64,000 nucleotides of DNA. It comes from Spirosoma aerolatum (GTDB lineage: Bacteria > Bacteroidota > Bacteroidia > Cytophagales > Spirosomataceae). The DNA lies in NCBI RefSeq assembly GCF_002056795.1, contig NZ_CP020104.1, positions 5,899,501 to 5,963,500 on the forward strand, written 5' to 3'. The first letter of the stretch is position 1. Each line of letters opens with the position of its first letter. The notes under the pieces were generated by a model, which saw nothing but the letters and a program-made list of their open reading frames with translations, searched no databases and was not told the DNA's origin. Made by a program: the position numbers and the translations under genes. Below, in pieces: positions 5,929 to 26,661 of this stretch.

Positions 5929-6402
5929 TCATTGGGGAACTAATGTATATGTATTAATCGTATTGCCTGTTTTTCGGTTGGTTTTCGTAGCTACCAGTGT
6001 CATCTGAGAGTCATCAAACTGATAAACCTCATATTCCAGTTCACCTTGCGTTTCGGTAGGGATTGGCGTAAGATTTTGCAGTATCAAATAGACCCGTGAC
6101 CCTTGTTGGGTGATTGACCAGTCACCCTCGAACGTCTCCTTCGTGAATTCGGTTAGTTTAATGCGAGACCCTGTGAATTGTAACTCATAATTACGGTAAC
6201 CAGGAAAAAGATTGTCGGCCTTTCCTTCCTGATAAACCAAGACTCCAGCCTCTTCCACACGAAAAGCTTTCCAGCGTTTATTGGCGATGCCATCTGTTAT
6301 CTGATGTTTTTTGCTGACTAGTGTAGGATCATTGATAGCACATCCTGCTAGCCAAACAACTATTACTAGTCCAATTACATAACCAATTATATTCTGTCGC
6401 AT
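5929..6402 (-). CDS. Small outer-membrane lipoprotein, last gene of the Fn3 operon
   Basis: A 157-residue protein with a signal peptide ending in the lipobox LAGC (Cys21). The mature part is a compact, beta-rich, lipocalin-like sequence (KRWKAFRVEEAGV near residue 43, EGDWSI near 93, then alternating hydrophobic strands to the C-terminus). No named family was recognised. Its start codon lies only 4 bases behind the stop of the 1250-residue Fn3 protein, so it belongs to the same transcript and is probably anchored at the outer membrane as an accessory of that system. Confidence 0.75.
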   Translation of the reverse strand: MRQNIIGYVIGLVIVVWLAGCAINDPTLVSKKHQITDGIANKRWKAFRVEEAGVLVYQEGKADNLFPGYRNYELQFTGSRIKLTEFTKETFEGDWSITQQGSRVYLILQNLTPIPTETQGELEYEVYQFDDSQMTLVATKTNRKTGNTINTYTLVPQ

Positions 6403-6406
6403 GATC

Positions 6407-9400
6407 TTACTGCTTTACGAATCGGGTTGAATACTGATGACTCCTGGTTTCTAGCTGAATGAAGTACATGCCTGCTGGTAATGACCGTACATCCACCGAC
6501 TGCACACTGGCATTTGACATCGTTTTTTCTATTACGATAGAACCAGCTTGATTGCGTATTTGCATCGTAATGGGTTCGAGGGGTAAACGACTAAACCAAA
6601 GGGCTTCAGTTACTGGATTTGGATACATAATCCATTCAACAGGAAGAGAAGAAGATGCATTTACCAATGGGGCAGGCGATGCAATCGTATTTGACCAGGG
6701 AGATGTCAGGTTCGATTGAACGGCCCTTACTCGATAGTGATACAGCAAACCAGATCGTAAGCCTCGATCGCTATACGTTGTTGTGTTTGCAGCCAGTTCG
6801 GCCACTCGTCTCCAGATTACCTGCCCATCTATCGACTGCCAAACTTCAAAGCCAGTTTCAGTTGATGAGGCATCATTCCATTTTAAGTTTAATTGATTAT
6901 AGACAGGTGATCCAGTTTCAAATTGCAGATTAGTGGGTGCAGGCAAGCCCGTTTGCGACACTGGCAAACTTACACAGACTTCATTAGTCCAATTTGAATA
7001 ACCGACTGCATTTTTGGCTCGAATCAAATAACAACATCGATTCGTAGTTGGCGTTATAGCCTGATCGAGGTAACGTTTCAGATCGGTTCCGGTAATAGTT
7101 TCTATACTCTCTGTACGTTCTATTTCAGCTCCGGCGTCATTCTGCCGGATTCGGATTAACGTAAGTTGAATTTCGCTGTATCCTTTGGCATCCCAGGTCA
7201 ATTCAATCTGATTTCCCGAAATTAATCGGGCAACCAGATTGGTTGGGGTTAGCGGTACAGTCAGCGTTGTAGTCGAACTTGTTAGCCAACTAGATTTAGC
7301 GTCTCCGTTTACAGCTCGTACCCGAATATAATACGTTATACCTGGCTCCAACCCTATTAATGAGTACCTAACCACCCCGGCTGCCAATGTATACGATTGA
7401 GTAATTGTAGTAAATACTGCTTCTGTACTATACTGTAATTCATAACCTGTTTCGTTCGTCGCATTATCCTGCCAGCCTACATTAATCTGTGTACCGCTGA
7501 CAGCCATGGCGGTAAGAGCAGTAGGGGCAGCCAACGTTATTACAGAAGGCTCTGTTGTTTTGGCACTGTCACTTACCCATCCCTGGTCACCCGCGCAGTT
7601 TCTGGCTTTCAGGCGAAACCAGTAGGTCGTGGCTGAATTTAGACCAACCAGCATTTCGCTTCGACTAGTTTTAAGAAGTTCGCGTTTGGTGCTATTGAGA
7701 TAGCTGCTGTTACTGGCAAATTCCAACTCAAAACTCTCTTCGGTATTGGTAGTATATTTCCAGCTAAGGTTGATCTGCGAGGAGCTGACAACCGTACTGG
7801 TCAACGATATTGGTTTGGTTGGTAAAACAGGCTTCAACTCGATTTGGCCAGTGTTCCATGGAGAGTAGTCAGCCCCCTTAACGGCTGCTATTCGTACATA
7901 ATAGGTCTGGCAGGATTGCAGATCCGTAATTGTATAATTCGTTGTGTTGGTGCTTACTGAAACGGAAGTAGGATTGGAGAATCCAGCATTGCCAGCATAC
8001 TCAATCATAAACCCAGTTTCGTTTTCCGACATATCCGTCCAGTTGATGGCTATCTGCTTACCATCTGGCGTTCCAGTCAGTTTCAGGTTGGTTGGGGCTA
8101 TCGGTAATGTCGGCTTTACAGGCAGTGTAGTAGCCTCTAGATAGACCCAGTCAGAAGCCAGCGGTGTCGAGGGTACGCTATTATTCGATGCCCGAAGGCG
8201 AAAATAATAACGAGTATTTGCCTGTAGACTGCTGATGGTGACGGTTGTTCCGGTCACTTGTAGTGTTTGCCCACTCAATCCATTGGTAAAATTCTGATCA
8301 AGCGCATATTGTAACTCAAGAAACGTTGCGTTACTACCCGCATTATTCAGATAATCGACCCGAATTTGCGCACTCGATAGTACTGTCAGCGTGTAAGTTG
8401 GCGCGGCTGGTATAGCAGGTATGGAAATCGATTTACTTTCCGATAATGTACTTCCCCCATTGTTGCTTGCATTGATCCGATACGAGTAGGTTTTACCGGT
8501 CTTTACAGTACGATCCTGATAGGTAGTCAGGGGAGCGTTTACGTTAGCGAGTTCAACAAATCCGCCCGTTCCCTCAGCCCGTTGCACTTCGAAAGCCGTA
8601 GCCCCACCCCCATCTGTCCAACTGACATCTACCTGATTAATCGAAATCAACGCTAACTGCACATTAGTAGGTGCATTTGGGGCTTTGGGTAGTACTGTAA
8701 GGCAGGCTTCGTTTGAATAGCCGGAGTTGCCTGCTGAATTAACAGCCCGTACCCGATAACAGTACATACTGCCATTAGTCAGCTTACTATCTAAAAAAGT
8801 ACCCGTTCCACTAAATGGCCCTGATGTATAGATTCGGGAAAATGCCCCATTGTTGTCCTTACGCTCAATCTCATACCCTGTTTCATAAGCTGTTTTATCC
8901 TCCCACGAAAGCAACGCGTTAGTACCATCAAGTGTAACCAGCAGTTTTCCTGGAGTTTCTGGAACCGGAAGTGGTGTTGCCACCTTGCCAAATCGTGCAC
9001 AGGCCGAACCTGCACTATTGACGGCACAAACCTGGTAGTAATAGGTTTTCCCCGCCAATACCCCATTATCGATAAACGTTTTACTGTTGGCTGCAACCTC
9101 GCCTACTCCCACCCATGGACCATCTGACGATTGATCACTACGGCTGATGGTAAACTTGGTTTCATTAGTTGATTGGTCGTCCCATGTTACTTCTACTTGC
9201 GTAGGTGCTTTTGCCACAGCTTTCAGATTCGCTGGTGCCTCAGGCAGCGTGTTATCCGTTGTGGCCAATACCGTTCCCGACCAATCGGACCAGTAATCGG
9301 TTTTATTGATCGTATTTTTGGCTCGTATCTGTATATAATAGGTATGACCCGATAGCAGTTTATCGAATGTATGCGTGATTTTATCGGCTCCCAAATCGGC

Positions 9401-10159
9401 CGATACGACTCCCTTTGCGAAATCCTGTACATCCGATTGGCGAATCTGATACCCTTCCACGCCACTAACACTATTCCACCGAACGCCTATGGTACTGGTT
9501 GTTTTGCCTGTTACGCTCAAACCACTTGGCACATCAGGGGAAGCATCCTGTGTTTTAGCCTGTGCGGTCACCCAATCCGATTCAAGCAAGATTTCACTCT
9601 CCAGATACGACTTCTTCAATCGGAAATAATATAGGGTAGCGGGGTCCAGAGCATCAATCGTGTTAGTGTTACTGGAAGCCTCAAAGGATTTCCGGGTTAC
9701 ATTGCTGAAGTTCGCCGTTTTGCTGTATTCAAGTACTGTAGGCTTATCGCTTTTCCAGCTCAACTTGATCTGGGTAGGCGAGGTAGTCGTCGCTTCAAAA
9801 CCTGTTGGCGTTTCTGGTTTCGGCAATGAGTTGGTCGTCGCTTCGGCACTGGCATAGGTAGGTGACAGTTTCGATTTGTATTCGGCCTGAATTCGATAGT
9901 AATACTTCGTACCGGGCTGTAGCTTTGTATCACTATGCGACCGAGCTGTAGCCTCTTTTTCAGCAAGATTACTAAACGACCTATTGTCGGTAGATCGCAA
10001 AATCACAAATTTCTCAACCGTAACCCCATTATGGGTCCAGACTAGGTCAATCTGGCTAGTCGAAATTGCTTTGGCTGAAAAAGCGGTTGGTGCTACCTGG
10101 GCAGAGACAGATAGACTCAGTACACCAATCAGCATCAGCGTTAGATACAGGCGTTTCAT
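6407..10159 (-). CDS. Twelve-repeat fibronectin type III protein with T9SS sorting domain
   Basis: A 1250-residue exported protein. Residues 1-20 are a signal peptide ending VSA-Q. By eye there are 12 Fn3 repeats of about 95 residues, each starting with a P-x-x-P-like linker and a Q-I-x-L-x-W strand and holding the Y-Y-x-R-x-x-A strand. The last 75 residues (starting MYPNPV, with LPAGMYFIQLET and ending FVKQ) are a type A T9SS C-terminal sorting domain, so the protein should cross the outer membrane and be attached to, or released from, the surface. No catalytic domain is visible; a stalk or adhesin-like role fits. It is the fifth of six minus-strand genes, with a 12-base gap to the gene before and 4 bases to the gene after. 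Confidence 0.9.
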   Translation of the reverse strand: MKRLYLTLMLIGVLSLSVSAQVAPTAFSAKAISTSQIDLVWTHNGVTVEKFVILRSTDNRSFSNLAEKEATARSHSDTKLQPGTKYYYRIQAEYKSKLSPTYASAEATTNSLPKPETPTGFEATTTSPTQIKLSWKSDKPTVLEYSKTANFSNVTRKSFEASSNTNTIDALDPATLYYFRLKKSYLESEILLESDWVTAQAKTQDASPDVPSGLSVTGKTTSTIGVRWNSVSGVEGYQIRQSDVQDFAKGVVSADLGADKITHTFDKLLSGHTYYIQIRAKNTINKTDYWSDWSGTVLATTDNTLPEAPANLKAVAKAPTQVEVTWDDQSTNETKFTISRSDQSSDGPWVGVGEVAANSKTFIDNGVLAGKTYYYQVCAVNSAGSACARFGKVATPLPVPETPGKLLVTLDGTNALLSWEDKTAYETGYEIERKDNNGAFSRIYTSGPFSGTGTFLDSKLTNGSMYCYRVRAVNSAGNSGYSNEACLTVLPKAPNAPTNVQLALISINQVDVSWTDGGGATAFEVQRAEGTGGFVELANVNAPLTTYQDRTVKTGKTYSYRINASNNGGSTLSESKSISIPAIPAAPTYTLTVLSSAQIRVDYLNNAGSNATFLELQYALDQNFTNGLSGQTLQVTGTTVTISSLQANTRYYFRLRASNNSVPSTPLASDWVYLEATTLPVKPTLPIAPTNLKLTGTPDGKQIAINWTDMSENETGFMIEYAGNAGFSNPTSVSVSTNTTNYTITDLQSCQTYYVRIAAVKGADYSPWNTGQIELKPVLPTKPISLTSTVVSSSQINLSWKYTTNTEESFELEFASNSSYLNSTKRELLKTSRSEMLVGLNSATTYWFRLKARNCAGDQGWVSDSAKTTEPSVITLAAPTALTAMAVSGTQINVGWQDNATNETGYELQYSTEAVFTTITQSYTLAAGVVRYSLIGLEPGITYYIRVRAVNGDAKSSWLTSSTTTLTVPLTPTNLVARLISGNQIELTWDAKGYSEIQLTLIRIRQNDAGAEIERTESIETITGTDLKRYLDQAITPTTNRCCYLIRAKNAVGYSNWTNEVCVSLPVSQTGLPAPTNLQFETGSPVYNQLNLKWNDASSTETGFEVWQSIDGQVIWRRVAELAANTTTYSDRGLRSGLLYHYRVRAVQSNLTSPWSNTIASPAPLVNASSSLPVEWIMYPNPVTEALWFSRLPLEPITMQIRNQAGSIVIEKTMSNASVQSVDVRSLPAGMYFIQLETRSHQYSTRFVKQ

Positions 10160-10171
10160 GATGGATCGTAT

Positions 10172-12274
10172 TTATTTTGACAGTAAGCTCAACCCGCTCG
10201 TCGGTTGACTTTGAACAGCAGCAGCTACACGAAACTGATTTGAAAAATAGGCCGGCCCATCAGACCGAAATACGCGTATCGACTGACCGTTAAGCAAATA
10301 CGTAGTCGTGGATTTGCCTTCAACCAGCATGATATAATGCACATCCCTGATGGTTCTTTTATCGGAAGAAAGCCGTCCGATTATAACCACCCGATTGGTG
10401 TAAGATAAATTGTTGGTAGTACCGGTTAAGGCCATGCAGATTCTGAACACATCATCGTGGCCACTTACCTCAGTCCAGAGCGAGTTGCCGCTCAAAATCA
10501 AATTCGGGTTGCTCGCATCATCATACTGCTTGATATCCACTTTTAGCTTCCCGTCTGGGTAGGTGAACCGAAGCCGTAGTTTGCCAAAATGCTCATCAAG
10601 GTAGATTTTATCCTGGCTCCGATTAGATGAATGCAGGACTGGAGTAAACTCAAAAACGCTACCATTGATAAACCCTGGCGGGTTAGTTCCGTCGCCATCG
10701 GCCAGTGCAGTAAATCCACTTAATTGTTTTTTGGCAACCTGATCTATAATTACCTGCGGAATGCAGGTTCCGGGAGGTGGTGGAGCGTTTGACGCAGTGG
10801 TTGAATCCGGAATTTGTCCACCATTACAAAGTACGCCCTGGAATACCGTACTCGTTCCTTGCGGTATCACAATTTTTCCGTCTGTAAATAGCGAATTGTT
10901 AAAGCTATCATCAGGAAGCGACCACTTACTCGGAATTTTGTCAACTCGTTTCAGCAGCAGTATGGTTGCCAGCGAAAGATTCTGCTTATTTTCTTTGATA
11001 TACTGCTCGACTTCCTCTTTTAACGAGGAGAGCAGTGTAATTTCAAACGTGGCTTTCGGTTCGAGCTCGATGTAGTTGGACATAGATACCCCATTGCCAC
11101 TTGTCGAGCAGGTATATTTAGCCCCGTAGCATATACCCAGAATCATTACAATATTTGTAGGCGCTGAAAATAATTTGATGGCAAAAAAATTAAGCTGCCC
11201 AATATTGATTTTGATCGTTGGCGTTAGGCAGATTTTGAAATCGAGTTCAATGGTTCCTTGATTGAGGACGATCCACTCACCCTCCTGTGAAGGCAGCGGC
11301 TCAATATCTCTGGGGGCAGCATCGCCATCCCTATATTCCTTTCCCCATCGAAATCGAATCGTTTTGTCTGCAATTTTGCCGTCAGCTTTTATAGTGCCTT
11401 TTGCAGACAAGTTGAGAGGGAGCTCAAACTGACCGGCAATATTGATAAACAGGCCACTTTCACCTACTGGTATATTTATTTCACCTAAGTCGAAAGGCGG
11501 TATCAGGGGAACTGGAACATCAACATTGATCTCACCTTCTAACTTTGTAGTCGCCTTAAAGCTATCTTCAAGAGCAAAGCTGAAACCCAGATAATTCATT
11601 CGCTGTAATTCAGGGTTGTCCGGATTTTGCGCATTGCCATAATCAATATCAAATGTAAACTCTGCTTTTAGTTGGTTTTCGAACGATAGTTTACCATTCT
11701 GGGAAGCATTAACTTTAATACCTTTATCATCAACTACTTTAATGGCCGATTTATTAATCTCAATGTCCTGCTTTTGATTAGTAGTGATGTAATTTCTTTT
11801 GACAAATAATTTTAAGTATTTAAAAAGCCCGGTCGGCCCTGTCAACGGAGGGAATTTAGAACTGTAATAAAGAGTAGTAATAACCCCGTTGTTTGCGTCG
11901 CGAATACAGTTTGCATCCTGCGAAAGGGCTACGGCTGGCAACCCTGTCAACCCCGAAAAACCAACTATCTTATTAGCAGTCAGAATATTACCAGGACAGT
12001 CGTTGGCAGCCACCCGCCCACCTCGTAAATCCACCCGATTTTTAAATCGTATATCTCCTTTCAATACAATTTGATTTTCTGTAACAGAAAGAATCTCTAC
12101 ACTCGAACTATCAATAACAAAAACATTATCATTCAGTACCGGATTACCGACTATTGTTACGGTTGCATCTTGACTACGATAGGTCACTGGCTCTGGATCC
12201 AGATTCGCAACCCGACATTCCTGATGAAGGCCCATCAAGCTAAGAGCCAGGGCAATGGCAACTAGTTTTCGCAT
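10172..12274 (-). CDS. Secreted beta-rich protein of unknown function (700 aa)
   Basis: A 700-residue protein with an N-terminal signal (residues 1-19); Cys20 follows HQE, which is not a good lipobox, so lipidation is uncertain. The rest has no recognised family. The middle (about 170-420) is dominated by alternating polar and hydrophobic strands with several cysteines (Cys-rich GICYGAKYTCST near 385). One short helical stretch, LKEEVEQYIKENKQNL, follows near residue 420. The C-terminal 230 residues look like a separate beta domain (LDEHFGKLRLRFTY, then a strand-rich region). There is no T9SS sorting domain. Its texture resembles the 2054-residue protein of the same operon, and the gaps of 12 bases on both sides support joint function. 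Confidence 0.8.
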   Translation of the reverse strand: MRKLVAIALALSLMGLHQECRVANLDPEPVTYRSQDATVTIVGNPVLNDNVFVIDSSSVEILSVTENQIVLKGDIRFKNRVDLRGGRVAANDCPGNILTANKIVGFSGLTGLPAVALSQDANCIRDANNGVITTLYYSSKFPPLTGPTGLFKYLKLFVKRNYITTNQKQDIEINKSAIKVVDDKGIKVNASQNGKLSFENQLKAEFTFDIDYGNAQNPDNPELQRMNYLGFSFALEDSFKATTKLEGEINVDVPVPLIPPFDLGEINIPVGESGLFINIAGQFELPLNLSAKGTIKADGKIADKTIRFRWGKEYRDGDAAPRDIEPLPSQEGEWIVLNQGTIELDFKICLTPTIKINIGQLNFFAIKLFSAPTNIVMILGICYGAKYTCSTSGNGVSMSNYIELEPKATFEITLLSSLKEEVEQYIKENKQNLSLATILLLKRVDKIPSKWSLPDDSFNNSLFTDGKIVIPQGTSTVFQGVLCNGGQIPDSTTASNAPPPPGTCIPQVIIDQVAKKQLSGFTALADGDGTNPPGFINGSVFEFTPVLHSSNRSQDKIYLDEHFGKLRLRFTYPDGKLKVDIKQYDDASNPNLILSGNSLWTEVSGHDDVFRICMALTGTTNNLSYTNRVVIIGRLSSDKRTIRDVHYIMLVEGKSTTTYLLNGQSIRVFRSDGPAYFSNQFRVAAAVQSQPTSGLSLLSK

Positions 12275-12286
12275 GGCTGTGGATGG

Positions 12287-14383
12287 TTAAGGGATATGAA
12301 CGATTATTCCTTCACTCAGTCGGCTTTGCTTTCCGGATGCCAGTACCGTTTTGGCTACATAGGCATAACGGCCCTGGGGCAGAGACGTATCGTAGATATC
12401 CGACCGGCTCGATTCGGCGGCACCCACTTGTACGAGTGGACCGTTGTTCTGACTACGGTAAATGACGATGCGATAGGGTGCGGGGCTCTTTACCGTCCAG
12501 GTCAGGTAAGTAGCTTTTCGAGCTTCGTCGTAACGAGCCTGTATCACAGGCATATCGACAGGATAAACCGACCCCATGGGCCGCCCCGTTCGGCTCGGCG
12601 AACGCTCCGACTCAAGACCACTGTTGTCTACGACCTGTACAGAATACGCATAAGAGCGCCCTTCCTGCACATTTTTGTCGAGGTATTCACGGGTCGATAA
12701 CGCATTCCGATTAAACGTTTGTACCAAAACCCAGTTCCCATTTATCTCGCGTCGGTAGAGCCGATAAGCTGCTACATCCTCACTTGGGCTGGTTTGCCAG
12801 CGTACCAGCACGTCGGTTTCGCGATTAACGATCTCGGTTACTAAAGGAGCCACTGGCCGTACGACATCTGGCCGATTTACTACTAACGGCTTTGAGAAAG
12901 CAGAATGGTTATAATGTTGATCGACAGCCACAACGCGGTAAAAGATTTGCCTGGTCAGCGTTCGCAGCGTAATGGTATCCCGGAATACACTGTCTGTCAG
13001 GGTGTAGTGTGTACGCTGCGAAAAGGCTTGATCGGGATTGTGGGCATAAAATACTTTGTAGCCCTGTATATCCCGCTCTGCGTTCCGGCGCCAGCGTAAT
13101 GTAACATAACCGACTCCTTTTACCGTATCAACCCTGGCAATAAGGCCCGTTGGCGGATCAGGCGGAATACTGTCGCCCATGGTTACATAAGCGGGTATCG
13201 ATGGGTGTTCATTTCCCGCTGTATCTACTGCTACAACGATATAGTGGTTTGTTCCGTTGGGGTCAGCGTCGAAATCAGTGAACGTACGCTCTGTTTTAGG
13301 AAGCAAGGTTAGGCCATTCCGTATCAACAGACGTTTGTAACTTCCGCGTAATGCATTAGCCCGGCTTACATAAAAGCCCCGCAGATCGCCTTCGACAGGT
13401 TCCTGTTTCCAACTTAGCCGTACACGTTTTCCACCAATATGACGTGCCGTTTCGACAAGAGGAGCAGCAGGCGGAGTCAGATCACGACCCATTCCCAAAA
13501 TCACATAAGGACTGGTGATCCATTCACCAAAAGGGTTCATACCAACCAGTCGATACGAATAGGGCCGGTAATTGGTCGATACTGAATCTTGAAAGTTCAT
13601 GACTGGTACCGACGCATCAGTATAGAGCAAAGGTGATTTCGTTAGCCGATGAAACGTTTTTCCATCGTCCGAGCGCTCAAGATGATACAGTACAAACTGT
13701 CGACTAATAAGTCGAGCTGGCCAGGATAACAGAACAGTCCGCTCCTGCCCTTCGGCTGTAAGCTGTGGAGGCACAGGTTGTTCAGATGGCCGATAGGTAG
13801 AAATTGTTACTATGGCGGTATCGGCATAACGTTTCTGAGCCACAGGGAGGAGCGGATATATCCGATAAACATACTGTTTGTTCCGTCGGGCCGATGGATC
13901 AATTAAACCAAGCCCAAGGCTTCGGGCAGTCTGATGCGACCGAAAAGCAGCTAATGAAACCATCAGATGCTGAAATGATTGATGATTGGCATCCTGGCTA
14001 CCCGTCCTGTCCGTTCCAGTGGGCTTGGCATTGGCAAGAGCCTGTTGAGCGGCCAATGCACCTACGTCGGTAGTCGGGTTGATCGACGACGGCAATAGCG
14101 GGCTGGCCGTTACGGGTGTAAACGGAGTTAATTGATTGTTAATCCGTTCTGCTCGTTCGATACGATACCCATACTGGCTATAAAGCTGCCAACGGGCCGG
14201 GCGAACAGGCATCCACAAAAGCCGAACCGTATCGGCGCGATACTGATGCCAGGTTGCTAGTTGAACTACGGGCAGTTTCAGTTGTGATGGTCTTGCCTGC
14301 GTCGGCCTGTGCTGAGCAAGAATACCCTTCGATAAAAGGCATACAAAGAGCAATAAACGATAAGTATATTGAGCGTACATCAT
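12287..14383 (-). CDS. Secreted protein with about six fibronectin type III-like repeats
   Basis: A 698-residue protein with a signal peptide ending ILA-Q at about residue 24 (a second ATG at 14380 would shorten it by one residue). About six Fn3-like units follow, beginning near residues 35, 205, 305, 400, 505 and 605 by eye, each with an L-x-W strand and a YRxxAVD-type strand. Between units 1 and 2 is an extra segment of roughly 80 residues. The sequence ends directly after the last repeat, without a T9SS sorting domain, in contrast to the 1250-residue partner. It probably forms an elongated periplasmic or surface rod. Gaps to neighbours are 12 and 15 bases. Confidence 0.85.
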   Translation of the reverse strand: MMYAQYTYRLLLFVCLLSKGILAQHRPTQARPSQLKLPVVQLATWHQYRADTVRLLWMPVRPARWQLYSQYGYRIERAERINNQLTPFTPVTASPLLPSSINPTTDVGALAAQQALANAKPTGTDRTGSQDANHQSFQHLMVSLAAFRSHQTARSLGLGLIDPSARRNKQYVYRIYPLLPVAQKRYADTAIVTISTYRPSEQPVPPQLTAEGQERTVLLSWPARLISRQFVLYHLERSDDGKTFHRLTKSPLLYTDASVPVMNFQDSVSTNYRPYSYRLVGMNPFGEWITSPYVILGMGRDLTPPAAPLVETARHIGGKRVRLSWKQEPVEGDLRGFYVSRANALRGSYKRLLIRNGLTLLPKTERTFTDFDADPNGTNHYIVVAVDTAGNEHPSIPAYVTMGDSIPPDPPTGLIARVDTVKGVGYVTLRWRRNAERDIQGYKVFYAHNPDQAFSQRTHYTLTDSVFRDTITLRTLTRQIFYRVVAVDQHYNHSAFSKPLVVNRPDVVRPVAPLVTEIVNRETDVLVRWQTSPSEDVAAYRLYRREINGNWVLVQTFNRNALSTREYLDKNVQEGRSYAYSVQVVDNSGLESERSPSRTGRPMGSVYPVDMPVIQARYDEARKATYLTWTVKSPAPYRIVIYRSQNNGPLVQVGAAESSRSDIYDTSLPQGRYAYVAKTVLASGKQSRLSEGIIVHIP

Positions 14384-14398
14384 AAATGCTGATGATTT

Positions 14399-17300
14399 TT
14401 ATCTGATTGTATTTACGGTAGTAGCCGCCCGATTTATAGTAGTAGCTGCCCGACTAACCGTTTGTTGAGTAGTAACTATAGCCTGATTAAGGCGCTGTTG
14501 AGCATTCTCGTAACCTTCGTAATTGATGGTCAATGGCGTTGCGGTAAGGCCATCACGTTTATTGTAGACATTGATTCCGTCGGTAACCTTAACCCAATAT
14601 TCCAGGCTAGGATAACTATAGGTCAGTCGAACCGTGTAGTTTTCGGCAGGCGGGTCGACCAACTCAATGCCAACCTCCTGAGCAACTTCTCGTAGATACT
14701 GATTAAACTCGAAGCCTACTATCAAGCGATTGTTACTTGTCCGGAAACTAACCCGTGGCAGCAAGGCAGGATCATTGCCCAGTATTTGCAAACTATTTTC
14801 GATAATGACTCTACGAGACAGATTTTCGGAAGTGCTACCACTCTGATTGACAAGCTGCGCCTTTTTCTGTTGAAACAGCGTACGAACTTGCTGGTACCAG
14901 GGGGTATTGATTAGGACTCTGGCTTCAATAGCCGGTTGAAGCCAATCTCGACCATCGCTTATGAGTGGGTTACCAGGCCCGATATCGATGGAATCCCAGC
15001 CCTCGTCCGATGAAAAAATTGATGTCATACTCCAGTCACCGTTTGATCGAAAAGGGCTTACACGAGTGGCTGCTATTTTCTCGGCAAACGTGCTGTATTT
15101 ACTGGTACAGAAGCCGTATTCGTAAATTCGTATAGCCTTTTCCTGTAAAGTTGGAGACGAGTTACCGGTAACAGTCTGTCCATTTACTCCGAGCCCTTGC
15201 ACCGTGTTGACTAACCCTGCCCGTTGAACGATCAATCGAGGAGTCGCTATTTTCCAGAACTCCAATCGTAAGGCCCGGCTCGTGGGTAATTGGGGTAATT
15301 TAAACACCAGCGCTCCCCGGTTATTGGGCATAGATCGTACTTCGAAAGAAACCTCACCTATCAGCGTTTCGCCATCCTTAATTCGTACCACATTTTTTAC
15401 TGTATATTGACTGCTATGTAGATCGGCAAATAGCTGCCTTATCTCAAAATGGGTGTGATTCAGCATCACAAACCGCTCATCATTACTACCCTCGTTGGGC
15501 AGATAGAACTGTTGTCCAGCAGCCGGATAACTAAAAAGTACCTCCGCAGCCGATATGTGGTAATCCGTTTCGCGTATTGTGAGCGATACGATCTGTTCAT
15601 TATAAAATTCGGTATCACGCCAGTCGTCACGACCGGGACCTGTTTTATCCTGTACGACAAACCGAACTTTGAACCTGACGAGTCCACCCGCAATCAGACG
15701 TTGATTGGCGTCGGGCGCAAATACATATTCATTTTCGCTAAGACGCTCCGTAACGGTAAGTGGAATTGCTGAACCATTAGCACGAGAAAGTGTATAGGAT
15801 TTTAGCAACCACCGGCGTCTGATAACCTGTTGATTTCGAGGATTGTACCACTCAAAGTATTGGTAAATAGGCTTATTGAGCCGAACAATGATAGGTTGGC
15901 CACTTTCGATAGAATCGCCAGGCATAACCTGCGCAATGATCGGATCAGTACCAGCGCTACGATTTTCGTCGATTGCTCCCGGACTGCATGGAGTTCCTGC
16001 CTTAAAAGGGAATTGCGTTACGGCAGGTGTTCCATCACTGTTTTCATCATCTAAAACGGCATCAACGGCTAAGCCCAATCCCCAAAAAATACCGTAAGCT
16101 GCGTTTTGGATAGTGCTATTGGTAAGCTCTATTTTACCATCGATCCAGCTTGGATTAGGCCCACCAAAGTCAGCTATAAACATCGCATTGACTCTAACAA
16201 TGTCATACAGGTTATCATTAAAATTAAACTGAAGCGAGCCATCAGCATAGGCAAATGCCTGCCCACGCCCATAGAAGTTGTTGATTCCAAAAGTTCCTCC
16301 CGATCCAACGCACGAAGCAGCACCGGTATAGCGTAACAAAGCCGCATCAAAGCCTGCACTTACGTTCACTCCGGCACGGAATCCCAAAAACCAGTCGGTC
16401 TGGAAACCCCCGCCAATCCAGCCACCAAACGCAATGCCTCCGTGTGTCAGACTAGGGTCGGGACGACCACCCCTCGTACGATTCAACTCGGCCCGAATGT
16501 CGGGCGGTATTTTGAAATAATTGCCTTTATCGGGTGGTAGCGGAGGCAATCCATATAGGCCGTAGCTTCCCATGGCAAAATACATACCAGCACTACCCAA
16601 TCCTACATCGATACCAGGTATCATCAGGCTCACTTCCGAATAAAGGGGCATACTCTGGAGTAATCCACCGGGGTCACCATGATTGGTTGGTGACCAGGGG
16701 TTTCCATTGAAAATATACCAATCGTCGGCACCCAGATATAACGCTACCTTACCGGCCAGAAAAGGCTCATTCGATGCGGCAGGTTGCCCTTCTATAGCTA
16801 CTGTGCTGGCAGAACCAACCAGTACATTGGCTACATTGATGTACACCCGAGCAGTACCCGTCAGTTTTTTATTAACAATGTCATACATCAACCCCAGTTT
16901 TCCACGCAGCATCATCCCATCGTTGATTACCGAAAGAAAGGCGGTCTGGGGTGGTTTAATAAAGTCCATAAACCCACCTACAGCCAGAGAGTTAACCCCG
17001 CCATGGGTATTTATACTTGCCGACATTCCCATACCTCCATTGAAACCCCAGCCTCCTGCTGCCACATCTGCGCATGTCAAACCGAACATTACCTGCATAG
17101 CCCCTTCCCTGGGGACAAGCGGAAAAGCACTTAGTGGGCTACTGGAATTACAAGACCCTGCACTAGCAAAACGGTCGACCACCGCATCAATTGGTGGCAG
17201 ATTGGGGTTGTTGGCACGTAAGGCCATATTGAGTGAAAGCCCTCCGATAAAACCCGTAATTTTCAGGTATTGCCCTAGCATAAGCTGTAATCCACCCAGG

Positions 17301-20300
17301 TAGCCATCTATCGAAAAGTAGGTATATCGTTGGGTTGGATCGTCGGACCGAAGGGCTTTGCCAAAAATAGCACCTACACTTCCTTCTACGTTCAGGCCTA
17401 CACCTAGCTTGAAGGCAACACACCCCCGAAAACCATTGCCATACGTCGCATCATTTTCAATAAATTCCAGACTGCCCGATACATGGCAAACGCTTACGTC
17501 AACGTTAATCCGAATCGCTTTGAGTGCCAGTTGAATACTATCTATCCGGGGAGAGCCGTTGGTCAGCGACACTTTACCCGTCAGTTCAAGCGTTGTACCA
17601 GCTCCAAAGCCCCAGCTCTCGTTGCTTGTTTGTTGTCCATTGCACCCTCCTACCAGCATTACGTCAATAGCAAACTGCAAACCACAGCGAGCTCCTCCGA
17701 CAGCATCGAATTTCCCATCGAACAACGGAGCAATCTGGCTGATTTCAACATTGAACCCATTGAATTTATGACCGCATTCGTTTCGCTGGGGGGCGGCATT
17801 GGCAGTATTACCCACAGCAGACGTTAGAGAAACGACAAACGAGCTTTTGTCGAAACCCGTGTCCGAATCATATTTTAGCCCCGTGAATGACAGTGCCTGA
17901 AAGCTCACATCCTTCTCTGGGTCTTCGATGGTCCAGTTTCCATTCAGATTGGCCACCAACCTCGCCTTTAGTGTCGTATTGGGGTAGTTTTTTGGGGTAA
18001 ATGAGCACTCAATTGTAGAGCCCGCTGTCAATGAAAACCTGGATTTGAATGCTGCCGCCCGGATAGATACCCGCTCATCAACCAGCACATCAATCTGAAG
18101 TTTACGGGTAGGGTCGGTTGCACTCACCGTTGGGAAATAGGCCCGATAGCTAAAAGGGTCATCAAATAGCGGAAAGCGCAGCTTACCCACCAACGCAGGT
18201 GGCTGAAACTGATTATTTTCCATACTCATCCGCAATGTATCGATGGAAAACTGCCACCCTGCCAAACTTCCTGCTGAATCACCCTCAAGTTGTAGCAGAT
18301 TGGCCATGTAAGCAGTAAAAGATACACCCCCATTGAAACCTATTTTCATCCCTTTGAATCCGGCCGTAAGCGAATGGCGGGATAGTGATTGCAGGGCTAC
18401 CGGAAGACCCACGCTTACGTTACCGGCATATAGCCCCGTCCAGGTATTAATTTCAGCCGCGCTATTACCTGGGCGTTCGGCAGCAGTCAGAACCATCGTT
18501 TCAGGATTACGGCTCGACGACAGATCAAGCGCAACATCGGATAACGAAAACGTCCAGGAAGAGTCGGCCGTGAAGAAAAAAGGAGTTACGTTTGCCGACA
18601 ATAATACATCCTGAAAATTACGGAATGAAGCTCCGAACGTAGCTTTTACAAACTGATTGTCTGCTGATGTGGCTGGCGAATTAGCTATTTGACGGCTAAC
18701 CGGACGAATAAAATCATACTTGAGGGTAACTTCACCGACCAGATTGATGCGTTGAAATGTCCAGTTACAGCCAAGAGAAATACTGGTTGATCTATTCGAA
18801 ACACTACTGGAGGTCATACTGGTTTCCGTACCCTTAAAGGCCAGCTCATAGTTAGCATTCGATTCGATTGTCAGATCGCTACCGAGATAAAACGTAGTGC
18901 TATCGGCCGATAATCCTTTGGGAGACAAACACACCTGTTTAGCACCAAAATATAAGGGCTGGAGATCGCCCATACGCGGTGTTTGCAGAATCAGATTAAT
19001 ATGGGCTCTGTCGGGCAGAAACGTCATACCGAATACCCCTACTCGGAGGGGGTCGTCGCCAACCTGGGTAGCTATACCAAAAGGAAGACTAATAGCCTCA
19101 TCGCTGGTAAGCTGATCCAGAAACCGACTGGCACTTTGTAGTCCATCGAACACATCGCGAACAACGGGCAACGTACTGTAATCGATTCGAACATGCACTG
19201 CATCACCAAATGAGGCCCGAATCTCCCCAGGAATGAAACCCGCATCTTCGATAGCTTCGGCCTGCCCACCAACAGCCGTCAGCAGACCATTGATTCGACG
19301 AATTTCAAGGTTTGTAAAGCGTACGCGCACACGGCCCATTAGCCCATTATTACTAATTTTTATACTTCCCTCCCCGCTGTATTTTCCACCAGTGGGGAGT
19401 ACATTGCCGTTTACCTTAATTCGGAAATACCCCATCTTGATCCGTGTTTCGTCGGCTAAAGGCTGGCTATATGCTTCTCCCTGTGTAGTGGCTACTGTAG
19501 CCGAGGTAGAACAGGCGCAGTCGGGGATTACGGCATCAAAATCATTGTCTGGATTAACTACTGCGACAGACTGATCGTCAACTAACGCTCGCCCATATAC
19601 GAACACACAAACGGGGCTAAATCCTTTGTTGGGAAGATCGACCTGCTGCCCCATCTGGTTTTCGACCCGCACTGAAACCCCATAGCGATAGCCGAGCTGT
19701 AGCCCTGCCGTTATACCCTGACGTGGTGCGAAATGTTGTGGCAGTAAGTTTTCCTGAAACCAATATCCAACAATAGCTCCCGTAAATTCTTTTCGAACAA
19801 CTATATCCGATGCGTCGGGGTTGTCCTGCAAAGCCTGTAATACCTGATTGGCATCACGCGTATCGTTTGGTAGCAATTCAACAACGTAGAGTGTAAACTT
19901 ATAATTGCCATTGACCACCTGCCCGGGGGGGACCATCCAGTCCCAGGAAATGGGCAATTGCCAGGCAGTTAAAGCCGGATCAAAGGGTTGTAATGTATCA
20001 GGGCAGGGTACATTATTGATCGACCTCAATTGGGGAGACACCCAGGCATTAAAATCAAGAAATACGGAATTGCAAGTACGAATATCAATCAATTGCTGGT
20101 TCAGATTAACCGGAATGGTAGTAACGCAGAGTTCATACCGACCATCTGGTATAATCGTTTCAGGGTTATTAGCATAAAACTCAACCAGCGTTTTTTCCTG
20201 CCCATCCTGAAGCGTAACCGTGAATTGACTGACCGACAACTGAGCGACCAACTCCTCGGCCGTTTTCTGCACAAATTCGTTTGGCGACAGTGTAAGCGGA

Positions 20301-20563
20301 AGAACATCCTGATTGGATCGAATAGAAAAAGAGCTTGTCGAATGTTTTAATACAACCTGAAACTTTACGTCGATCTGTTGATTTGTTCGATTTCGTATAG
20401 TAGTGGTTACCTCATTGAATGCCCGTTGCACATCTACCAACAACGCCCGATAGGCACTTGGAGGTGGACTAACGCTCACATCAACCAATTGCTGGGCATG
20501 CCCGGAAATACCAATCAGGCAAAGCAGAAGCCCCATGAGGTACTGTTTGTAAAGACGGATCAT
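14399..20563 (-). CDS. Giant secreted protein of unknown function (2054 aa, possibly TANFOR-like N-terminus)
   Basis: A 2054-residue protein with a signal peptide ending GHA-Q at about residue 24. The first 330 residues form strand-rich domains with the motif IPDGRYELCV near residue 138 and YKFTLYVVEL near 222; from memory this resembles the TANFOR-type domain of Bacteroidota, a tentative assignment. About 350-1550 is a long run of alternating amphipathic strands rich in Gly, Asn and aromatic residues, with scattered Cys. An Ig-like segment begins near 1565 (PGDSIESGQPIIVRLNKP). The C-terminus has no T9SS sorting domain and ends in an A/T-rich probable helix with repeated AATT units. No enzyme motif was found. 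It is the second gene of the operon, 12 bases after the barrel gene. Surface or periplasmic scaffold is the best guess. Confidence 0.85.
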   Translation of the reverse strand: MIRLYKQYLMGLLLCLIGISGHAQQLVDVSVSPPPSAYRALLVDVQRAFNEVTTTIRNRTNQQIDVKFQVVLKHSTSSFSIRSNQDVLPLTLSPNEFVQKTAEELVAQLSVSQFTVTLQDGQEKTLVEFYANNPETIIPDGRYELCVTTIPVNLNQQLIDIRTCNSVFLDFNAWVSPQLRSINNVPCPDTLQPFDPALTAWQLPISWDWMVPPGQVVNGNYKFTLYVVELLPNDTRDANQVLQALQDNPDASDIVVRKEFTGAIVGYWFQENLLPQHFAPRQGITAGLQLGYRYGVSVRVENQMGQQVDLPNKGFSPVCVFVYGRALVDDQSVAVVNPDNDFDAVIPDCACSTSATVATTQGEAYSQPLADETRIKMGYFRIKVNGNVLPTGGKYSGEGSIKISNNGLMGRVRVRFTNLEIRRINGLLTAVGGQAEAIEDAGFIPGEIRASFGDAVHVRIDYSTLPVVRDVFDGLQSASRFLDQLTSDEAISLPFGIATQVGDDPLRVGVFGMTFLPDRAHINLILQTPRMGDLQPLYFGAKQVCLSPKGLSADSTTFYLGSDLTIESNANYELAFKGTETSMTSSSVSNRSTSISLGCNWTFQRINLVGEVTLKYDFIRPVSRQIANSPATSADNQFVKATFGASFRNFQDVLLSANVTPFFFTADSSWTFSLSDVALDLSSSRNPETMVLTAAERPGNSAAEINTWTGLYAGNVSVGLPVALQSLSRHSLTAGFKGMKIGFNGGVSFTAYMANLLQLEGDSAGSLAGWQFSIDTLRMSMENNQFQPPALVGKLRFPLFDDPFSYRAYFPTVSATDPTRKLQIDVLVDERVSIRAAAFKSRFSLTAGSTIECSFTPKNYPNTTLKARLVANLNGNWTIEDPEKDVSFQALSFTGLKYDSDTGFDKSSFVVSLTSAVGNTANAAPQRNECGHKFNGFNVEISQIAPLFDGKFDAVGGARCGLQFAIDVMLVGGCNGQQTSNESWGFGAGTTLELTGKVSLTNGSPRIDSIQLALKAIRINVDVSVCHVSGSLEFIENDATYGNGFRGCVAFKLGVGLNVEGSVGAIFGKALRSDDPTQRYTYFSIDGYLGGLQLMLGQYLKITGFIGGLSLNMALRANNPNLPPIDAVVDRFASAGSCNSSSPLSAFPLVPREGAMQVMFGLTCADVAAGGWGFNGGMGMSASINTHGGVNSLAVGGFMDFIKPPQTAFLSVINDGMMLRGKLGLMYDIVNKKLTGTARVYINVANVLVGSASTVAIEGQPAASNEPFLAGKVALYLGADDWYIFNGNPWSPTNHGDPGGLLQSMPLYSEVSLMIPGIDVGLGSAGMYFAMGSYGLYGLPPLPPDKGNYFKIPPDIRAELNRTRGGRPDPSLTHGGIAFGGWIGGGFQTDWFLGFRAGVNVSAGFDAALLRYTGAASCVGSGGTFGINNFYGRGQAFAYADGSLQFNFNDNLYDIVRVNAMFIADFGGPNPSWIDGKIELTNSTIQNAAYGIFWGLGLAVDAVLDDENSDGTPAVTQFPFKAGTPCSPGAIDENRSAGTDPIIAQVMPGDSIESGQPIIVRLNKPIYQYFEWYNPRNQQVIRRRWLLKSYTLSRANGSAIPLTVTERLSENEYVFAPDANQRLIAGGLVRFKVRFVVQDKTGPGRDDWRDTEFYNEQIVSLTIRETDYHISAAEVLFSYPAAGQQFYLPNEGSNDERFVMLNHTHFEIRQLFADLHSSQYTVKNVVRIKDGETLIGEVSFEVRSMPNNRGALVFKLPQLPTSRALRLEFWKIATPRLIVQRAGLVNTVQGLGVNGQTVTGNSSPTLQEKAIRIYEYGFCTSKYSTFAEKIAATRVSPFRSNGDWSMTSIFSSDEGWDSIDIGPGNPLISDGRDWLQPAIEARVLINTPWYQQVRTLFQQKKAQLVNQSGSTSENLSRRVIIENSLQILGNDPALLPRVSFRTSNNRLIVGFEFNQYLREVAQEVGIELVDPPAENYTVRLTYSYPSLEYWVKVTDGINVYNKRDGLTATPLTINYEGYENAQQRLNQAIVTTQQTVSRAATTINRAATTVNTIR

Positions 20564-20575
20564 GGAATAAGTGTT

Positions 20576-22297
20576 TTAGAAGCTGATTCCGTAAAGCAGA
20601 TTACCACGTAATTCGGCGAAAGTCCGAAACTGGAGCCCGTCGGCCTGGAACCCATACTGGTTGTAGACATAAAATCCATTAACTGTCAGGTTCTGTTTCC
20701 CCTGTCGAATGGCAACACTTAGTCCGGTACTGATGAATTGTCCATCGGCCTGTCCATTGGCGGTACGTTTCTGATTAGAATGATTGAGTGTTGTTCGTAA
20801 CTTACCATTGAACCACTGACGGCCCAGGTTGAGTGCTATGCCTACATTAGCGATGTTCCGTCCATACGATTCAATTGCCACATAACTACCCGAAACAGTA
20901 GCATTGATATGTTGAACAGGCCAGGTAAGATTGTAGGTTAAAGAGGCCAAATCAGATGATGCCGCCGTATATTGCCGCGTATATTGATTTTGATCATTCG
21001 TATTCTGATACGTACCAGACAAGGTTAGCCCATGACTCATTTGCCGGCTACTGAGTCGGTAAGCAACACTACCCGTATACGACGCATTAATTACACTAAC
21101 CGCCAGTGAGTCGTTGAACGCATCACCAAATCCTCGAAACTGTCCCAACCCAAAGTTCGAATAACCTAGATTGACCTGTAGGGCAGGAGCAGGAATAAAA
21201 CTTAGAGCAGCACTTCCAACGGTTCGATGGGTTGTAAAGCCTCGCAGTCCGCTGAGGTTATCGCGCGATACACCGTACGAACCACTCAAATTCAAGCGTC
21301 CCGCTAAAAACGAATAGCGAGGATTGATCGTAATCTGCTCCAGGTCATTCTGAAAGAAATAAGAACCTAGCGATTGATAGTCAGGATCGATACGCTGATA
21401 AACTAACCCAATGCCGCCTTGTCGTAACTGATAATTGGCAGCAACCTGCCCAGCTGTAAAAAAAGCCGTCGATTCATTAATCCATATCAGTTTATCAAGT
21501 CCCTGAATCGTAAATCTGGAATTGCCACGGCTCAGCAGGAGATTACGGGTAAGCAAACTGGCCCCAAGGTCAATGTCGAACGTAAGTTTATGTTTCCAGA
21601 AACCAAACTGACTATGGATACCAGCCGCTATATTTTCCATTGGCGTAACCAACGATTGACGTGAGGGAGCCTGAATAGACTTGACATCGTCTGTTGCTTT
21701 AAAGAAAGTCATATCCACATAGTCACCAGGCTTTCCATAACCTAGCTTCAGGGCATACCCTACTCTTCGGTACGTTGGCCGAACATACTGGCTACGTCCT
21801 TCAAGAGATACCGTATCTTCATTGACAGCCCGGTTGAATCGTCCGTATACTGCCCCAATTCGCCAACGGCCCGGCGTTAACTCTACGCCTGTACCCCAAA
21901 AATTAGCCCCGCCCAGCGTGTAGTTCGAGAACCGAATATTCCGATAGCCCAGATGTAACTTCGCCCATTTATAATAGGGGGATACACCGTACTGATTGAA
22001 TGGTTGAGAAAACCGGCGTTCCTGCTCACTCACCACCAGCGAAAATGGCATAGCAACCCCATAGACGGTAATGATCGGCGATCCGGACAAATACCAAGAT
22101 ACTGGTTGACGCCTATTCGTAATACCGTTCGCCTGATAGAAGGTCAGACCTGCCGATAGGGATCCTCGTATACTAAAGGGTTTCTGCTGATGTAACCCTT
22201 GCAAGTTCTGCCCCTTTACATATAGGGAACTCCCCACAAAACAGACTGCCAGCAATAGAAGAGCCCGGATAATGTCTCTAATGAATGGTAAGAGCAT
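20576..22297 (-). CDS. Putative outer-membrane beta-barrel protein heading the Fn3 operon
   Basis: A 573-residue protein starting at the ATG at 22297; the frame extends four codons further to a TTG at 22309, which is less likely. The signal peptide ends VKG-Q near residue 30. The body consists of alternating polar and aromatic or hydrophobic strands separated by short turns (WAKLHLGYRNIRFSNYTLGG, WRIGAVYGRFNRAV, and so on), and the protein ends in Phe (YGISF), the usual C-terminal barrel signal. Length and the absence of plug and carboxypeptidase-like domains exclude SusC. It could be a translocation or anchoring pore for the large proteins encoded behind it, by analogy with SprF/PorP-like barrels, but no specific family was recognised. 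Confidence 0.8.
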   Translation of the reverse strand: MLLPFIRDIIRALLLLAVCFVGSSLYVKGQNLQGLHQQKPFSIRGSLSAGLTFYQANGITNRRQPVSWYLSGSPIITVYGVAMPFSLVVSEQERRFSQPFNQYGVSPYYKWAKLHLGYRNIRFSNYTLGGANFWGTGVELTPGRWRIGAVYGRFNRAVNEDTVSLEGRSQYVRPTYRRVGYALKLGYGKPGDYVDMTFFKATDDVKSIQAPSRQSLVTPMENIAAGIHSQFGFWKHKLTFDIDLGASLLTRNLLLSRGNSRFTIQGLDKLIWINESTAFFTAGQVAANYQLRQGGIGLVYQRIDPDYQSLGSYFFQNDLEQITINPRYSFLAGRLNLSGSYGVSRDNLSGLRGFTTHRTVGSAALSFIPAPALQVNLGYSNFGLGQFRGFGDAFNDSLAVSVINASYTGSVAYRLSSRQMSHGLTLSGTYQNTNDQNQYTRQYTAASSDLASLTYNLTWPVQHINATVSGSYVAIESYGRNIANVGIALNLGRQWFNGKLRTTLNHSNQKRTANGQADGQFISTGLSVAIRQGKQNLTVNGFYVYNQYGFQADGLQFRTFAELRGNLLYGISF

Positions 22298-22385: not shown

Positions 22386-22880
22386 TTACTGGCAACTGGG
22401 TCCGTATTTGCCCGTTCGAGCTGGAATAAACTCTTTATTCCAGAGCAACACGTTCTGCTTCTCGTTTAGAGCCAGGTTCGAGTATGTGGTTTGCTGACCT
22501 TCTGGCGTCAGTACGAGTTGCACCTGACCGCTCGCTTCCTGCACACCCCAGGTACCCGTTTCAGTGACAGGGCCCTGATTATCGAAACTTGCCTGACCAT
22601 AGTAGTTGTAATAACCACCTGGGCACAAGTCCATTTTTATCACGCGCGTAAAGCCACCGCTGTAGGACCGATACGTATGAAAATAATTCAGCCGAGTACC
22701 CGAAAGGATGCGTCGCCATTGTGAAACCACGTCCAATTCGGTACTGGCTTCACGATCATATACAACTAACTCGCCCCTATCAGCGCTGTCGCCCTGGGTG
22801 CAGTTAACAAAACACACAATACTGAACAGACCCAGAAGCCAGCTGGAAACGATTGCCTTACGAATAAGATTTGCGTTCAT
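22386..22880 (-). CDS. Probable lipoprotein, lipocalin-like (164 aa)
   Basis: The preferred start is the ATG at 22880, giving a 164-residue protein with hydrophobic signal (residues 8-24) ending at Cys27 in FVNC, a relaxed lipobox. The frame stays open upstream to 22985, but that extension has no signal character. The mature domain holds WRRILSGTRL near 53, DLCPGGYYNYYG near 84 and ETGTWGV near 108, the L-x-G...C-x-G-x-Y...GTW pattern of small lipocalin-like Bacteroidota lipoproteins. It lies 88 bases upstream of the Fn3 operon's barrel gene on the same strand, so it may be its first gene or an independent unit. Confidence 0.7.
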   Translation of the reverse strand: MNANLIRKAIVSSWLLGLFSIVCFVNCTQGDSADRGELVVYDREASTELDVVSQWRRILSGTRLNYFHTYRSYSGGFTRVIKMDLCPGGYYNYYGQASFDNQGPVTETGTWGVQEASGQVQLVLTPEGQQTTYSNLALNEKQNVLLWNKEFIPARTGKYGPSCQ

Positions 22881-23019
22881 GGATATAGAGAATTTTAAAT
22901 GATTGATGGAGAGTCGTGTCGATAGACCAGGAGATTGGCTACCAATTGTTGCATCAAAGTTCTCTACGTTTAGATCACGGCGCACCCACCAGATATGGTG
23001 GTATTTTTTTTTAGGTCAC

Positions 23020-24560: not shown

Positions 24561-25196
24561 TCACACCAACTTGCCCTCAATAGCTTTTGCCACTGCCTCA
24601 GGGGCAGAGTTGACGTGTAATTTTTCGTAAATATTTTTCACATGCCAGTGTACTGTATGATAACTCAAACAGCAGGCATCGGCAATCATTTTATAGCTCA
24701 TTCCTTTTACCATGCAGCCCAACACATCGCGTTCGCGGTCGGTCAGGGCTACATAGGTAGGCTGTGCCTGTACAAACTGATGCTGAAACATGGTCAGTAC
24801 TTTGGCAGCAATAGTTGGCGACATATGCGCTCCCCCACCCGCAACATCCCGAATGGCCTGTAGCATTACATCAGGATCGGGGCTTTTCAGTACGTATCCT
24901 GAAGCTCCTCCGCAAATAGCTGCAAACACCTTATGTTCATCCTCAAACACGGTCTGCATCAACACTTTTGTGTCGGGATAAGCTAGTTTTATATTCTGCA
25001 GCGCTTCGATACCTGAAATACCCGGCATCTGAATATCCATCAGCACGACATCGGGTTTATGCTTTCGAATTTTGGCCACAGCCTCGTTAGCGTCGCCATA
25101 AGAGCCCGCCAGAAACACATCGTCCTGACTGGCCAAAAACAGGCTCAGGTTTTGCCGAAAACTTTTGTTATCCTCAAACAGTACGATACGAATCAT
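24561..25196 (-). CDS. LuxR/NarL-family response regulator
   Basis: A 211-residue two-domain regulator. Residues 1-120 are a receiver domain with acidic pocket Glu8-Asp9, phosphoacceptor Asp54 (VVLMDIQMPG), the switch Thr near 83 and Lys104 (YVLKS). Residues 148-205 are a LuxR-type helix-turn-helix starting LTDRERDVL, with the recognition helix in SYHTVHWHVKNIY. The cognate sensor is the HisKA_3-type histidine kinase 80 bases upstream, on the same strand. Targets are unknown; the two unknown genes immediately downstream are in the same probable operon. Confidence 0.95.
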   Translation of the reverse strand: MIRIVLFEDNKSFRQNLSLFLASQDDVFLAGSYGDANEAVAKIRKHKPDVVLMDIQMPGISGIEALQNIKLAYPDTKVLMQTVFEDEHKVFAAICGGASGYVLKSPDPDVMLQAIRDVAGGGAHMSPTIAAKVLTMFQHQFVQAQPTYVALTDRERDVLGCMVKGMSYKMIADACCLSYHTVHWHVKNIYEKLHVNSAPEAVAKAIEGKLV

Positions 25197-26356: not shown

Positions 26357-26661
26357 AATCAGTCCATAACTACCCCAAAACCGGCAACTTATCATTAACA
26401 GGCACAAGTTTCCACACGTTGTCGCTCCGTTCCAGACGGTTTACGTCTACATTATGCTATACCGTCGGAACAAGTGGTTTCTGGTTGCCAACCAGTGGAT
26501 TTTCGCTGCTAATAAACAGCCTGTTATGTCGAAAAACCAACAAACTTCAGTCATTCCTGCGAAAAGTTATGTCCACAAACAGGCTATTTATAAGTTCATT
26601 CGTCAGCAGATAGCGAGCAGGGTTATAGAATTCAGCCACAACAGTAGTCACATTATTTTTT

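Follow-up and report, generated by a model that had tools for sequence, protein, structure and literature searches.

What do six closely packed genes for exported proteins in Spirosoma aerolatum encode, and do they make up a single system? The genes lie in a 64,000-nucleotide stretch of DNA, called as a whole the window here, within a host genome of 7.96 Mb which contains two further loci of this kind (L057 and L066). They were originally predicted to specify a multi-component surface structure in which an outer-membrane barrel serves as anchor or conduit. All six minus-strand reading frames (157, 1250, 700, 698, 2054 and 573 aa) were recovered at the positions given in Table 1, separated by 12, 15, 12, 12 and 4 bases as reported before; for the barrel, a start at the 22297 ATG gives 573 aa, and a TTG farther upstream gives 577 aa. 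Inspection and hydropathy identified export signals at the N-termini of all six products. In a sister locus from Spirosoma sp. 48-14 (L032), the giant protein is 97% identical, the gene order is the same and the six frames are intact.

Table 1. Features of the operon and of the region upstream of it, with positions in the window.
Feature	Position	Strand	Evidence or remarks
Outer-membrane barrel, 573 aa (predicted)	20576..22297	-	About 24-26 strands, MtrB-like width
Giant exported protein, 2054 aa	14399..20563	-	TANFOR-like N-terminus, linker, beta-rich core, less conserved C-terminus
TANFOR-like domain of the giant, about residues 1-325	19589..20563	-	hhalign
Gly-rich segment of the giant, about residues 937-1481, long amphipathic strands (predicted)	16121..17755	-	AlphaFold2
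Exported Fn3-repeat protein (fn6), 698 aa	12287..14383	-	Pfam fn3; alignment A4 (15 loci); co-location
Beta-rich probable lipoprotein, 700 aa, lineage-specific	10172..12274	-	Invariant N-terminal Cys in alignment
Fn3 rod with T9SS type A sorting domain, 1250 aa	6407..10159	-	PF00041, PF18962, TIGR04183
Accessory lipoprotein, 157 aa	5929..6402	-	LAGC lipobox
NarL-type response regulator, possible regulator, upstream	24561..25196	-	Similar gene near other barrels
Sensor kinase, upstream	25277-26407		Paired with the NarL-type regulator

A protein search of the order, covering 390 genomes, found relatives of the giant in 50. Window-type giants (E<1e-100) are rare, at five of the 390, and two of 17 listed same-genus genomes had any match. 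Profiles were then compared with 395 genomes of the phylum, scoring two giant and three barrel candidates per genome, so that the third giant of this genome (L066) stood outside the count: the giant core (A2) was matched in at least 47 of the 395, the barrel (A3) in 146 and fn6 (A4) in 237. Because Fn3 domains are common, fn6 was rejected as a marker in its own right and used through co-location only. For this purpose we took the 48 giant loci better than E 1e-100 (from 42 genomes) together with 112 barrel and 89 fn6 places at about E 1e-29 or better, weaker listed places being omitted. Both a barrel and fn6 were present within 25 kb and on the same strand at 43 of the 48, where a crude estimate puts chance co-location at about 0.01 per locus. 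The remaining giant loci had only a barrel (one), only fn6 (three) or neither (one), and the last of these, as well as one of those with fn6 only, starts at the first bases of its contig. Seen from the barrel, 68 of the 112 places were without an A2 giant nearby; fn6 was close to 30 of these 68, in 13 cases with 12.2 to 13.4 kb in between.

The three proteins also diverge together. Distance matrices for 26 loci that hold all three gave Mantel r values of 0.68 (giant-barrel), 0.88 (giant-fn6) and 0.80 (barrel-fn6), none of 2000 permutations being as high, with the contribution of shared phylogeny still included in these values. In the window, giant, barrel and fn6 are all closest to those of L040, L041 and L043, and the three proteins of L066 are all closest to those of L053-L056 and L048. 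The pattern is weaker for L057, where L069 comes first or tied for the giant and fn6 and second for the barrel, at 20 to 36% identity. Given the matching nearest relatives and the correlated distances, the giant, the barrel and fn6 therefore seem to move as a set. The idea of one system of six genes is thus supported for a core of barrel, giant and fn6, which the joint search by homology and synteny finds together across the phylum, but not for all six genes, as the sorting-domain client, the lipoprotein and the 700-aa protein were seen in particular lineages only among the loci compared.

Structure prediction agreed with the original assignment of the barrel, giving about 24-26 strands, and the modelled fold is compatible with a role as anchor or conduit. 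Pfam had no family for the barrel up to E 1, and no NCBIfam model matched 15 of its homologues at E 0.01; a sequence search among solved structures returned one meaningless match for the barrel (E 0.47) and none for the giant core. The possibility that barrel and giant core are homologous to each other was rejected (hhalign probability 5%). MtrB is a barrel of about 26 strands, and the predicted barrel resembles it (PDB 6r2q, Mtr complex) in its number of strands and its width, but the two are 11% identical and the six operon proteins contain 0 CxxCH haem motifs. A fold common to MtrB and the barrel shows no common function.

At the N-terminus, an alignment of window-clade giants (A7) matched a profile of eight TANFOR proteins (A8) over most of the domain with an hhalign probability of 98.4% (E 7.4e-15), and on this profile evidence the window giant is a TANFOR domain and a core in one chain. 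The original prediction missed this domain, and hence the link to polymorphic toxins. The NCBIfam model TIGR02542 itself has no match on the window giant, and an HMM of four split TANFOR proteins matched it weakly (E 0.001). Three of the ten proteins that we call TANFOR are matched by TIGR02542 (L034, L037 and L072), all below its cut-off of 67 bits; the others are tied to the family by 34-37% identity to L034 in A8 or by HMMs built from TANFOR proteins. As a probe, TIGR02542 was discarded as too narrow (4 of 80 genomes matched, none over the cut-off). Our TANFOR profile gave 22 matches, in 15 out of 80 genomes of the phylum sample. Within 25 kb, 15 of the 22 matches had a barrel, 16 had at least one of barrel and fn6, and six had neither.

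Among 51 surveyed loci, picked non-randomly by a giant or barrel match (with L032, L033, L039, L042, L044 and flank-only loci left out, and two loci each merged from two pieces), a barrel was present in 47, TANFOR in 42, fn6 in 42 and the giant core in 39; barrel and TANFOR occurred together in 41 and were joined by fn6 in 34. The window, L040 and L041 were scored without TANFOR in this survey because a plain HMM misses their domain. Among the barrel places with fn6 nearby and no A2 giant, two that were read, L059 (4345-16488) and L060 (3696-16121), encode TANFOR giants of 4047 and 4141 aa which adjoin the barrel and are unmatched by A2. No giant or fn6 was found at the barrel loci L088-L093, where the barrel itself bears TANFOR (L088-L090) or a TANFOR protein stands beside it (L092 and L093).

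The TANFOR domain is joined to the giant core in 22 other ORFs, with separate genes in other loci, and to the barrel in eight ORFs (weakest E 3e-5, in L084); seven of these eight, aligned and compared with the TANFOR profile, gave an hhalign probability of 99.6% (E 3.6e-24). Partners that some lineages encode as a single chain and others as two proteins frequently bind one another. Because TANFOR and the barrel show both arrangements, the TANFOR domain would be expected to bind the barrel.

We give roughly even credence to the reading that the operon encodes a TANFOR-type outer-membrane system with a conserved core of barrel, TANFOR giant and Fn3 protein. With the direction of transport, the surface exposure and the function of the system as we infer them, all six proteins would be exported by Sec; the barrel would insert into the outer membrane and hold the giant at or across it by means of the TANFOR domain; the Fn3 proteins would form an exposed rod, the one with the sorting domain reaching the surface by T9SS; and the lipoproteins would be accessory. 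Some sister loci would load toxin domains onto the same scaffold, and the window version, with no recognisable toxin, might then serve for display or contact, or else bear an effector that escaped recognition. The multi-component surface structure of the original prediction is accordingly supported as one system at its core, its exposure at the surface being presumed.

TANFOR proteins have been described as carriers of polymorphic toxin domains, one of them a proven DNase with an immunity protein, and Fn3, SprB and sorting-domain genes are enriched around TANFOR genes (PMC7073777). Their exit route was left open, with export by T9SS put forward as a hypothesis (PMC7073777; Jana, Salomon and Bosis 2020). 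The locus studied here shares with these toxins the N-terminal TANFOR domain, the Sec signal, the Fn3 and T9SS sorting-domain neighbours and an origin in Bacteroidota (PMC7073777), but differs from them in that no toxin is recognisable, TANFOR sits on a large beta-rich core, a barrel and a giant core are conserved, and TANFOR is also found on barrels. The terms 'barrel' and 'outer membrane protein' are absent from the main text of PMC7073777, figures and supplements being separate from it, and neither the barrel nor the giant core is described in the literature found, which includes PMC9950754, PMC12618676, PMC11796102 and PMC12419801 and lies mostly outside subscription journals and preprints. 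The earlier statement that no role had been described is therefore only partly right, since TANFOR neighbourhoods with Fn3 and T9SS genes are already present in PMC7073777, although the barrel goes unmentioned in that main text. New relative to the original prediction is the identity as a TANFOR-type locus with its own barrel, whose giant has the TANFOR feature and not the toxin feature. The barrel and Fn3 protein which accompany TANFOR across the phylum, together with the TANFOR-barrel fusions, provide concrete candidates for an exporter or anchor.

We would go further only tentatively, to the possibility that TANFOR is a docking module, and not a toxin signal, of a so far unrecognised machine for export or display at the outer membrane of Bacteroidota, built from a wide MtrB-like barrel of its own, a TANFOR-headed giant and an Fn3 rod; T9SS would supply one partner only, toxins would be one of several loads, and the window operon would be a toxin-free form. 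The results suggest that the TANFOR domain extends beyond toxins, and they suggest a little-described machine for the display or delivery of giant proteins at the cell surface. In the two-partner secretion system CdiB/CdiA, a dedicated barrel serves a giant protein with exchangeable toxin cargo. The present loci are similar in having a dedicated barrel beside a giant, and toxins as exchangeable cargo in relatives, but dissimilar in that the barrel has no Omp85 or POTRA match (Pfam, E up to 1).

One case agrees with toxin carriage by TANFOR loci: in L049, the genes for the barrel, the giant, a TANFOR protein and an EndoU nuclease-domain protein are consecutive. Five other TANFOR proteins had no toxin family by Pfam except for a reprolysin-like metallopeptidase in L068 and L069, which is over the cut-off in L069 and below it in L068. 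A 1770-aa TANFOR protein in L035 (1672-6984) has a central metalloprotease-like HELGH motif. For the window operon, no toxin family exceeded the cut-off in the six proteins (Pfam, NCBIfam) or in the five other than the 1250-aa protein (PADLOC, PHROGs), and no immunity gene was recognised. A defence system was rejected, as PADLOC had no match in the same five proteins.

Some of these observations would also suit a plain adhesion or spreading structure, in which the giant and the Fn3 rods are held by the barrel as SprB is by SprF, TANFOR is structural only and toxins are a side branch. The many Fn3 repeats, the T9SS client and the operon's want of a recognised toxin all favour this account, and anchoring of SprB by SprF is described (PMC9143113). 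The SprB/SprF and PorP/type B cargo pairs likewise combine a barrel and a giant protein of the cell surface, in Bacteroidota that possess T9SS (PMC9143113, PMC12618676). However, the barrel here is not recognised as PorP/SprF by NCBIfam or Pfam families, and the giant is without SprB repeats or a type B sorting domain (no TIGR04131 and no PF13573 at E up to 1); SprB/SprF membership was rejected on these family searches, which covered the barrel homologues as well and upheld the original view that this is a different gene set. The nuclease domain in one sister locus and the description of TANFOR as a toxin module (PMC7073777) also speak against adhesion as the whole explanation, which we regard as rather improbable, if still a serious alternative.

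The giant's core allows other readings. AlphaFold2 modelled residues 465-1600 with a pLDDT of 69.6 and a pTM of 0.44, and the fold matches of the giant were ambiguous, with ApoB and LptD among them. Its Gly-rich segment contains 15.4% Gly and 4.8% Lys+Glu; the Gly peak recurs in homologues, the low Lys+Glu in some only. In the model, residues of about 937-1481 possibly form a barrel of their own or else a beta sheet of lipid type. In the former case the giant itself could serve as a conduit through the outer membrane, in the manner of LptD or an usher, by way of a large barrel made by residues 937-1481. The operon would then specify an export machine with two barrels that handles the Fn3 proteins, which we consider unlikely. 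In the latter case, the genes might constitute an envelope system for handling lipid or glycan without surface display, the sheets of the giant binding lipid and the barrel acting as export channel. The ApoB and LptD matches point in that direction, but the operon has genes for Fn3 rods and for a protein sorted by T9SS as well, and TANFOR links it to toxins, so that we hold this reading to be very unlikely.

A toxin tip at the C-terminus of the giant was also rejected. Compared with P0002, the window giant is 41-67% identical per 100 residues up to residue 1900, and 26% and 37% identical over its last 154 residues; this tail is less conserved but alignable and therefore not a swapped domain. 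The giant of Runella limosa (L033 9947-16054, equal to L039 319-6426 on the same contig) is interrupted by a single stop codon, which leaves two ORFs. That break and the lack of a toxin family in the window operon would fit a relic, a toxin-locus scaffold drifting after loss of its toxin, but with six intact frames in the window and in L032 (a weak test at 97% identity) and a giant still alignable to P0002 over most of its length, we give this explanation hardly any credence.

The Fn3 protein with the sorting domain would need T9SS for its export, and SprA, the T9SS translocon, is encoded in the host genome. Of the 47 genomes with a giant, 43 were tested for SprA, four with weak matches being left out, and all 43 had it, compared with 79 of 113 others (Fisher one-sided p 3e-6), these controls being a non-random set of the first-listed genomes followed by about every second one of G390-G543. 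As 33 of the 34 SprA-negatives belong to one family, f37, and 32 of 33 non-carriers in the first control set are SprA-positive, the contrast is confounded and therefore consistent with, but weak as evidence for, T9SS dependence.

Upstream of the barrel lie, with names given by eye, a small lipoprotein-like ORF, a membrane protein, a 178-aa ORF, a response regulator and a sensor kinase. A 199-aa lipoprotein-like ORF with a GTG start (22386-22985), between the barrel and the regulator genes, is conserved in L032. A similar NarL-type regulator was found at most 6 kb upstream of nine barrel genes out of 47, among them that of the window, and some loci end before 6 kb; with eight of these nine in family f1, universal two-component regulation was rejected.

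The remaining genes fall outside the core. The original prediction that the 1250-aa Fn3 protein bears a T9SS sorting domain was correct: residues 1178-1250 form a type A domain which matches PF18962 (E 1.6e-10) and TIGR04183 (E 4.6e-11), both over the cut-off, and PF00041 matches the same protein in 11 stretches. It is the single T9SS signal of the operon, as had been noted, the other five proteins having no such match in Pfam or NCBIfam at E up to 1. The proposed repeat numbers of 12 and 6 for the two Fn3 proteins are reasonable, although Pfam resolves 11 and 3 stretches. The 157-aa protein is indeed a lipoprotein, with the canonical lipobox LAGC. The 700-aa protein is probably also one, because its N-terminal Cys, within a non-canonical lipobox, is invariant in four aligned sequences including the window's; it has no Pfam family at E 1 and one NCBIfam match, below cut-off. 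Several weak matches were discounted, being under the cut-off or explained by Fn3 similarity alone: EcoRII-C to the lipoprotein (E 0.058), Stealth_CR3 to the giant (E 0.01), Drt3a to the 700-aa protein (E 0.0058) and phage tail proteins to the 698-aa Fn3 protein (E 1.9e-5).

Across 27 loci and the flanks of the Mantel-set loci, relatives of the 700-aa protein occur only in L032, where it is near-identical, and in L040 and L041, and the pair of Fn3/T9SS client and lipoprotein only in family f1 loci. Relatives of the client and the 157-aa lipoprotein adjoin fn6 in L042, L054, L080, L082 and L083, the lipoprotein being recognised by phmmer in L042 (6e-55) and L054 (3e-22) and by inspection in the other three. 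A small gene of 189-396 aa lies between the giant and fn6 in L045, L048, L052, L053, L054, L055 and L056; judged by eye these intervening genes differ among loci, those of L048, L053 and L056 being alike, and they might encode a variable cargo.
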